A DNA stretch of 27,883 nucleotides. It comes from a virus. The stretch spans positions 1 through 27,883 of the IMG/VR virus record IMGVR_UViG_3300025010_000203; one strand, given 5' to 3'. The notes under the pieces are model-generated. The model searched no databases. It was not told where the DNA came from and worked only from the letters and a program-made list of their open reading frames with translations. Positions 22,603 through 23,972 of the stretch are shown here, piece after piece (positions within the stretch are counted from its first letter, which is position 1; every line of letters starts with the position of its first letter). The translations under genes were made by a program, and so were the position numbers.

Positions 22603-23061
22603 ATGGCAAAAATGAAATTAATATTTTACGGTGAATTAAAGAGCGGTGAATTTAAAATGAATGATCGTGATAAGTTTTTGAAATATATTGCAAAAATGGC
22701 AGACCCAAAAGACAACAGCAAACCAGTCAGAATACGCATGACCGTGGAAAAAGTCCGAAAAACACGCACAACCCCCCAGAATTCATACTACTGGGGAATA
22801 ATTGTAGCCATGGTGGCAGACGAAATTGGATATAACCCGTGGGAACGGCAGGAAGTCCACAATGCCCTGAAACAAGCCGTGAGGGGCATGGTGGGCGACC
22901 AGAGGCTCCCTGTGCCAGTTAGCACCTCCACGATGACTACAACCGAATTCAGCGAGTATGTGGAGGATTGTAGGCGGTGGGCTTCGCTCAACCTAAACAT
23001 AAATATCCCGAGTCCGAACGAGATTGAGCCAGCGGATTATGACACACAGTTTATGCACTAA
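22603..23061 (+). CDS. NinB-like recombination protein
   Basis: 152 aa. The motif 'KTRTTPQNSYYWGIIVAMVADEIGY' followed by 'VHNALKQAV', 'STSTMTTTEFSEYVEDCRRWASLNLNINIPSPNEI' is the signature layout of NinB/Orf-family proteins of lambdoid phages (QN..W near the middle, 'T.EF..Y...' and 'P.P' at the end), which promote homologous recombination by helping annealing or strand-exchange proteins load on DNA. Length fits the family. It ends the recombination operon, 31 nt before the next promoter's -10 region. Confidence 0.75.
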   Translation: MAKMKLIFYGELKSGEFKMNDRDKFLKYIAKMADPKDNSKPVRIRMTVEKVRKTRTTPQNSYYWGIIVAMVADEIGYNPWERQEVHNALKQAVRGMVGDQRLPVPVSTSTMTTTEFSEYVEDCRRWASLNLNINIPSPNEIEPADYDTQFMH

Positions 23062-23088
23062 AAAACGATAGCTATAAAATATTTTATT

Positions 23089-23097
23089 TGGTATAAT
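23089..23097 (+). promoter_or_regulatory. Extended -10 promoter before the replication attenuator
   Basis: TGGTATAAT (TG 23089-23090, TATAAT 23092-23097). No clear -35 at 17 nt. The predicted +1 is at or near 23104, which is the A of an ATG; the 6-nt spacing from TATAAT to ATG equals that at 14821-14833. Confidence 0.72.
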
Positions 23098-23103
23098 AAA
23101 ACC

Positions 23104-23217
23104 ATGCTTGTAAAAAAACCGTCAAAAATAAAAAATAGAAAGCTGATATCTGCAAACCGCTGGTTTTTACTTGACGGTGTTCCAACGAGGAGCAGATACC
23201 AGCTTTTTGTTTTTTAA
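23104..23217 (+). CDS. Possible 37-aa leader peptide
   Basis: An ATG at the predicted +1 opens 37 codons (MLVKKPSKIKNRKLISANRW, then a hydrophobic C-terminal part ending in LFVF) and stops with TAA at 23215-23217, inside the T-run of the terminator. It would be leaderless. Lys/Arg are enriched early. The frame coincides with an RNA element, so it may be a real leader peptide whose translation disrupts that structure, or chance. Coding is uncertain. Confidence 0.35.
   Translation: MLVKKPSKIKNRKLISANRWFLLDGVPTRSRYQLFVF
23118..23215 (+). ncRNA. Attenuator or small RNA with pseudoknot topology
   Basis: Helix 1: ACCGTCAA (23118-23125) with TTGACGGT (23171-23178), 8 bp. Helix 2: AAAGCTGATATCTGC (23139-23153) with GCAGATACCAGCTTT (23192-23206), 14 pairs and one A-C mismatch. 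Helix 3: AAACC/GGTTT with loop GCT (23154-23166). A T-rich run (23204-23215) follows helix 2, making it a terminator. Helices 1 and 2 interleave: either a pseudoknot or two mutually exclusive folds. Transcription would start near 23104 and stop just before the replication initiator ATG at 23226, so the element either controls readthrough into that operon or makes a ~112-nt RNA. Confidence 0.75.
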
Positions 23218-23225
23218 TTAAAAAT

Positions 23226-23972
23226 ATGCAAAATAATGGATGGATTAAGCTCCACAGGAAACTGAGAGAAAATCCGATATATAAAAACTCCAAAGCCGTG
23301 CATTGTTGGATAGAGTGCCTACTAAGAGCCAACCACAACAATGAAAGTTTTTATTTAGGCAGGAAGCAAATAGAATTAAAAAGCGGTGAATTTATCTTTG
23401 GTAGAGAGGAATTTGGTAAGGGTTTAGGCATTTCTGGCTCAACAATTTGGTTTTGGTTAAGGCGCTTTGAAGTTGACAGTATGGTTGACATCAAAAAAAC
23501 ATCAAAAGGTTGCTTATGTAAGATAAAAAACTGGGAAGAATTTCAAACAGTTGACAGCAATCTTGACAATAAAAAAACAGCAAATAAACAGCAAAAAAAC
23601 ACAGACAAGAATGATAAGAATGATAAGAAGATAAAGAAATATAATATTGCGACAAATGTCGCAGAGGGGGAAATAATCCCAGACATTTTAAAAGACAAAC
23701 AAAAACATATTCAAATAATTGGAATATACGCAAAAGCAAAAAAGATATATTTTGAAAACAAAGAGCAACAGCAATCTTTTATAAGGCGACACGTTCGGCC
23801 AGCCAAAAATTTATGCGGATATGATCCAAATAGAATAATAATCACAATGAAATATTTACTTGATCAAGCGGATTTTAAATGGACACTGGAAAGCGTGGGA
23901 AAATTTATTGATGAAGACTTAACAAAAACAACCATGAAAAAAAATAATAATTTAATAACATCTGTAATATGA
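23226..23972 (+). CDS. Replication initiator / replisome organiser with winged-helix N-terminus
   Basis: 248 aa. 'GWIKLHRKLRENPIYKNSKAVHCWIECLLRANHNNESFYLGRKQIELKSGEFIFGREEFGKGLGISGSTIWFWLRRFE' is the N-terminal wHTH of phage replisome organisers (GWIKL.R.....P......W..LL..A, GEFI.GR..L....G.S.STV...L..L). Then comes a polar Asn/Lys-rich linker and a C-terminal helical part (ENKEQQQSFIRRHVRPAKNLCGYDPNRIIITMKYLL). Such proteins bind the origin and load helicase. It follows the RNA element and terminator; its stop overlaps the next ATG (ATGA). An origin may lie inside the linker region but no iterons are evident. Confidence 0.75.
   Translation: MQNNGWIKLHRKLRENPIYKNSKAVHCWIECLLRANHNNESFYLGRKQIELKSGEFIFGREEFGKGLGISGSTIWFWLRRFEVDSMVDIKKTSKGCLCKIKNWEEFQTVDSNLDNKKTANKQQKNTDKNDKNDKKIKKYNIATNVAEGEIIPDILKDKQKHIQIIGIYAKAKKIYFENKEQQQSFIRRHVRPAKNLCGYDPNRIIITMKYLLDQADFKWTLESVGKFIDEDLTKTTMKKNNNLITSVI

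Follow-up and report, generated by a model that had tools for sequence, protein, structure and literature searches.

The rep leaders of plasmids pT181 and pIP501 and the CI RNA leader of phage P4 each limit a replication gene by means of a structured leader and a terminator, and these attenuators use an antisense or trans RNA together with alternative helices. In the Salmonella prophage Gifsy-1, a promoter, the short structured RNA IsrK and an intrinsic terminator lie directly 5' of phage genes (PMC4825925). Some IsrK transcripts read through and serve as mRNA, an upstream small ORF is involved, and control was shown to be translational, via alternative helices with orf45 (PMC4825925). The STAXI motif, in which a pseudoknot comes in two or three successive repeats, places pseudoknots near genes for DNA-binding proteins and in some cases near phage RNAs (PMC2864571).

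Here we describe an RNA element in a stretch of 27,883 nucleotides of viral DNA (the whole of which we call the window; positions 1 to 27,883 of IMG/VR record IMGVR_UViG_3300025010_000203) that is like IsrK in its predicted layout of promoter, structured RNA and terminator and in its predicted read-through mRNA, whereas IsrK is without an H-type pseudoknot terminator module that recurs with unrelated sequences before many genes. Compared with the pT181, pIP501 and P4 attenuators, the two helices of the window element are compatible with each other, and an opposite-strand promoter was not found in a weak scan. Unlike STAXI, the window pseudoknot is single and comes with a promoter and a terminator, with no tandem repetition and no match to Rfam.

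Anatomy of the element

The element lies between a gene for NinB, on its 5' side, and a gene for a DnaD-like helicase loader, which is thought to be the gene that it controls in cis. Its features are as follows.

23089-23097, plus strand: extended -10, TGG-TATAAT (TGGTATAAT), promoter-like by sequence, with an expected +1 at about 23104
23104-23217, plus strand: possible leaderless or near-leaderless ORF of 37 aa (MLVKKPSKIKNRKLISANRWFLLDGVPTRSRYQLFVF), from translation, spanning the element and the terminator
23118-23125, plus strand: H1a, 5' strand of helix 1 (ACCGTCAA), pairing with 23171-23178 over 8 bp
23126-23138, plus strand: L1, the A-rich linker crossing helix 2, recognised by A-content across copies
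23139-23153, plus strand: H2a, 5' strand of helix 2 (AAAGCTGATATCTGC), pairing with 23192-23206
23154-23166, plus strand: H3, nested hairpin AAACC-GCT-GGTTT, from sequence
23171-23178, plus strand: H1b, 3' strand of helix 1 (TTGACGGT), pairing with H1a
23192-23206, plus strand: H2b, 3' strand of helix 2 and predicted terminator stem (GCAGATACCAGCTTT), from pairing with H2a and fold energy
23204-23215, plus strand: T-rich tract (TTTTTGTTTTTT), from sequence; a T-run follows H2b in nearly all copies
23226-23972, plus strand: DnaD-like helicase loader (replication initiator), PHROG 2514, E 4.5e-31

Read directly from the sequence, H2 has 14 pairs and one A-C mismatch. The T-rich tract holds two T-runs (23204-23208 and 23210-23215), the 3' end of the short RNA is predicted at about 23209-23216, and the initiator ATG at 23226 lies 17 nt past the first run and 10 nt past the second. 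The loop of the putative terminator, at 38 nt, exceeds those of ordinary terminators. No -35 is recognisable upstream of the extended -10, and a sigma-70 scan of 22900-23450 on both strands at 9/12 returned no site; this is a weak scan, which misses the sense promoter too. Other copies of the element, described below, have predicted promoters at homologous positions. On the minus strand, the element again reads as a pseudoknot followed by TTTTTTT (23110-23125), and it may thus stop antisense transcripts too.

We found that the window element folds with a minimum free energy of -36.6 kcal/mol, compared with -20.1 +/- 2.9 in dinucleotide shuffles (0 of 200 as low; z -5.7), and that its best interleaved helix pair reaches -35.9, compared with -19.8 +/- 4.8 (0 of 300 as low). 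Of 34 copies folded with RNAfold, 32 are predicted to contain H1 in the best fold of an RNA ending before H2b, and 31 to contain H2 when folded at full length, which fits an H-type pseudoknot that folds in order. In these models H1 and H2 look like co-existing helices of an H-type pseudoknot, not mutually exclusive alternatives.

Conservation of the helices

To judge the structure by its evolution, we compared the window with L036 (IMG/VR 3300001390_000007), a related phage whose element is 72% identical to that of the window and directly precedes its own DnaD-like gene, the protein of which is only 23% identical to the window's. H1 is identical in the two phages, and H2 carries three two-sided changes and one one-sided compensated change; none of the 21 pairs is broken, whereas slid controls keep 22-51% paired. 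At the position of H3, L036 has a different small hairpin. Another pair of copies, L045 and L085, share their loop sequence but not their helix sequence, and keep 19 of 19 pairs with none broken, ten of them through two-sided changes (slid controls, at most one); H1 is among the helices that covary. L145 and L134 differ by three two-sided changes with one broken pair, and the comparison of L151, L152 and L181 yielded one two-sided change. In three Enterococcus prophage copies (L167-L169), H2 is conserved by eye and H1 differs, still pairing in L169 and L167 and reduced to 5 bp in L168. Read as covariation, these comparisons show that the window RNA is a real, evolving structure that has been selected as structure.

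A preliminary description of this DNA had pointed to H1, H2, the nested hairpin, the extended -10 and the T-run, all of which are present at their positions and score far above shuffles, and had proposed looking for the helices at homologous loci, where they indeed proved to be preserved. It had spoken of alternating or pseudoknotted helices; the pseudoknot stands, and the helices do not look mutually exclusive. Its remark that the element does not match familiar riboswitch classes and may be new agrees with Rfam, as follows.

At the gathering score, Rfam 15 gave 0 matches in the window, and permissive scans of the window element and 13 other loci gave only chance matches at the elements. The best bacterial small RNA model in the permissive scan, lactis-plasmid RNA (RF01742), aligned to the linker and H2 at chance level (16.5 bits, E 2.7; gathering score 70). 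Eukaryotic miRNA models that appeared in the permissive scan were rejected as chance fits to a long hairpin. Homology with IsrK, which presumably has an Rfam model, was not indicated either, as cmscan matched the window element to no Rfam family. The phage motifs of a 2017 survey of 224 candidate RNAs were compared through Rfam only. The window element shows no DNA similarity to sequenced phages, and the pattern CCGTCAAAAATNAAN{20,50}TTGACGG, searched in viral contigs, matched only its own virus (also present in our set as L002), the L036 contig and two coding regions by chance. The window element belongs to no family tested.

The same architecture in other phages

The order of parts for which we scanned was a start region, H1a, an A-rich linker, H2a, H1b, H2b, a T-run and a gene start. 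A first scan for interleaved helices in the 210 nt 5' of about 80 DnaD-like genes found ten or so upstream regions with a pair far above shuffles and most others without one. A T-run after H2b, which became a search criterion later, could be seen even in the copies found before it was required. With the T-run required, a scan of whole loci (1.37 Mb, 110 non-redundant loci, both strands) gave 24 sites at z <= -4, a few of which are the reverse strand of another match, compared with one in block-shuffled DNA; when a promoter within 40 nt, mismatched at no more than two positions, was required as well, 14 sites were left, compared with one. With no hand selection, an ORF start lay within 60 nt of 16 of the 29 strong sites (z <= -4) and of 36 of the 261 weak ones, and 18 of 29 strong sites fell outside long ORFs, compared with 61 of 261 weak sites. 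Some strong matches inside ORFs are probably due to chance.

About 30 further copies were found, with sequences unrelated to that of the window. Only the topology, the A-rich L1 and the T-run are shared across copies, and the helices and L2/L3 differ; L1 is 6-38 nt long with 46% A, compared with 25-26% in L2/L3. The L1 motif AAAAATNAAA occurs in five copies (window, L036, L025, L199 and L200). In most curated copies H2 is separated from the start codon by 3-40 nt. The genes behind curated copies encode DnaD-like loaders, small zinc-ribbon proteins, an integrase, a Rha-type regulator, a glycosyltransferase-like protein and an 840-aa capsid-type protein, names that, except for DnaD, are our reading of the sequences. 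A single phage can have up to three copies (three each in the L006 and L026 contigs, two in L049). One copy is in an isolate, Pseudomonas phage Orisa03, on the minus strand at L220 17125-17018 before Orisa03_00053; further copies occur in an Ignavibacteriales bin (L181) and in the Enterococcus prophages. The latter copies are on the minus strand, opposite to the neighbouring genes:

L167 17500-17590, minus strand: Enterococcus prophage copy
L168 15400-15500, minus strand: Enterococcus prophage copy
L169 12974-13060, minus strand: Enterococcus prophage copy

They have no leader-type gene behind them, keep H2 and the hairpin, and may be stand-alone small RNAs.

Membership of the curated set was decided partly by eye, and the single-site E-values and z-scores are rough; L206, L158, L128, L156 and L094 are weaker members, and L183 and L075 are uncertain. 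The spectrum of genes is biased because sampling began from DnaD-like genes, and the DnaD searches favoured proteins with an NDKNDKND linker. In the DnaD-like gene of the window, a DNA repeat (AATGATAAGAATGATAAG, 23598-23643) encodes NDKNDK, a linker that the search patterns favoured and that also recurs in many phage DnaD-like proteins; the repeat could represent origin iterons lying within the gene for the initiator, like those of lambda O. Judged from these scans, the architecture appears to be a common control device, shared by many unrelated phages, that has apparently gone undescribed so far.

A possible leader reading frame

The ATG of the 37-codon frame in the window, at 23104, coincides with the expected +1, and its stop TAA (23215-23217) lies 8 nt before the initiator ATG. 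In several copies, as in the window, the ATG is at or close to the expected +1 and its frame continues past the terminator. Frames that span or nearly span the element were found in L031, L026, L006a, L006b, L045, L036 and L085; the frame closes early in L021, L025, L027, L005, L039, L011 and L199, and start-stops (ATGTAG/ATGTGA) occur in L049b/L141. Across 31 curated copies, part of which were picked after the ATG had been noticed, 29 ATGs fall within the 20 nt before H1a, compared with about 3 per 10 nt elsewhere. Copies picked by structure alone, before the ATG had been noticed, have it in about 14 of 19, and unselected strong sites show no ATG excess (9 of 29 versus 84 of 261 weak sites). 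We regard the 5' ATG as suggestive. By eye, the differences between the window and L036 in the first half of the leader are mostly at third codon positions. Because frames close early in many copies, we rejected the idea that the module generally serves to encode a conserved leader peptide.

Proposed mechanism and alternative explanations

Our preferred reading, to which we assign a probability of about 0.52, is that the window element is a cis-acting 5'-leader attenuator, an H-type pseudoknot in which H2 doubles as an intrinsic terminator. The promoter just upstream would start an RNA near 23104; H1 is predicted to form once H1b has been transcribed, after which H2b would pair across H1 with H2a and complete the pseudoknot. 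H2 and the T-tract would then act as an intrinsic terminator that releases an RNA of about 110 nt, and the downstream gene would be expressed from read-through transcripts only, so that the element, judging from its geometry, would set the amount of loader mRNA. This geometry is the strongest argument on function: since the 10 nt from the T-tract to the start codon leave no room for another promoter, the initiator mRNA should consist of transcripts that have passed the terminator, from which we infer a leader attenuator. Because H1 closes before H2 while RNA polymerase still holds the 3' end, H1 probably tunes the speed at which the terminator stem closes. Termination would most likely be relieved by a ribosome loading on the 5' AUG and covering H1a, or by a factor on the A-rich linker. 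The predicted arrangement, in which a promoter is followed by a leader, an intrinsic terminator within that leader, and then the gene, is that of an attenuator; the absence of a good -35, the 38-nt terminator loop and the Enterococcus copies opposite to genes count against it.

Two other readings, neither exclusive of an attenuator or of the other, are its main rivals. The short RNA might be the main product, a pseudoknot-capped small RNA that acts in trans like IsrK, either on its own read-through mRNA or elsewhere, with read-through secondary. A predicted promoter and terminator of its own flank the structure closely and both ends are locked in helices, there is precedent in IsrK for a small RNA that is also a read-through mRNA (PMC4825925), and a free small RNA fits the Enterococcus copies better, alone as they are on the opposite strand without a leader-type gene. 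In L006 (2233-2400 and 8717-8860) the leader opens with an exact repeat of the beginning of the downstream gene, over 13 nt (ATGGAACACAGAG) or 8 nt (ATGAGACT), which makes H1b antisense both to H1a and to the start of that gene, and L011 shows a resemblance between leader and gene start (GTGGAAA/ATGGAAA). We rejected such complementarity as a general property, since only 4 of 31 copies have an H1b that is complementary to the start of the following gene at p<0.05; almost every copy sits in a leader position, and no seed is conserved among the freely varying helices. We consider this reading unlikely. Quite unlikely, in our estimate, is a translation-sensing attenuator, in which a ribosome from the 5' AUG would translate a leader ORF across both 5' strands, H1a and H2a, so melting the terminator, and would couple to the initiator. 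It would account for the position of the window ATG and stop, the spanning or nearly spanning frames in seven further copies, the ATG peak before H1a in curated copies and the third-position changes between the window and L036, but not for the early closure of the frame in seven copies, the start-stops, the lack of ATG enrichment in unselected strong sites or the fact that L045 and L085 carry motif AATTTAAAGAG in frames that differ.

The remaining explanations fare worse. H2 and the T-tract alone make a plausible terminator, which might only insulate NinB from the replication module with H1 incidental, but H1 keeps its position and covaries in copies of unrelated sequence, and a separate promoter appears to drive this stretch only; we regard an insulator as very improbable. 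We give hardly any credence to a DNA element, in which overlapping inverted repeats beside the replication gene would serve as protein or origin sites: the arms interleave in fixed order with G-U pairs, the T-run is strand-specific, the orientation is set relative to promoter and gene, and the same module precedes non-replication genes. Antisense copy control was set aside, no opposite-strand promoter having been seen in the weak scan that misses the sense promoter too. A ligand riboswitch, a class that the preliminary description had mentioned, was rejected: homologues have no conserved aptamer core, and the freedom of helices and loops to change sequence, with no sign of ligand binding, makes one unlikely. 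The broader claim made there, that a control RNA which is compact, pseudoknotted and equipped with a terminator precedes the replication initiator, is supported. The link to replication initiators is not exclusive, as many other phage genes are preceded by this architecture, up to three times per phage.

Implications

More tentatively, and as a possibility rather than an expectation, the copies may form a widespread and so far undescribed class of phage leaders defined by topology only (a 5'-terminal AUG, then H1a, the A-rich linker, H2a, H1b and the H2b-terminator), a uniform switch used several times per genome, in which H1 would be a co-transcriptional brake on H2 and a ribosome at the 5' AUG (or a linker factor) would decide between the knotted short RNA and read-through. 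Sequence-based RNA searches would miss such a module, because only its topology is conserved. If this reading is true, it defines a testable class of phage attenuator and explains how replication genes can be placed behind a terminator; pseudoknot topology alone would be a conserved functional unit, and one kind of knotted leader RNA would serve many unrelated tailed phages in timing their genes.
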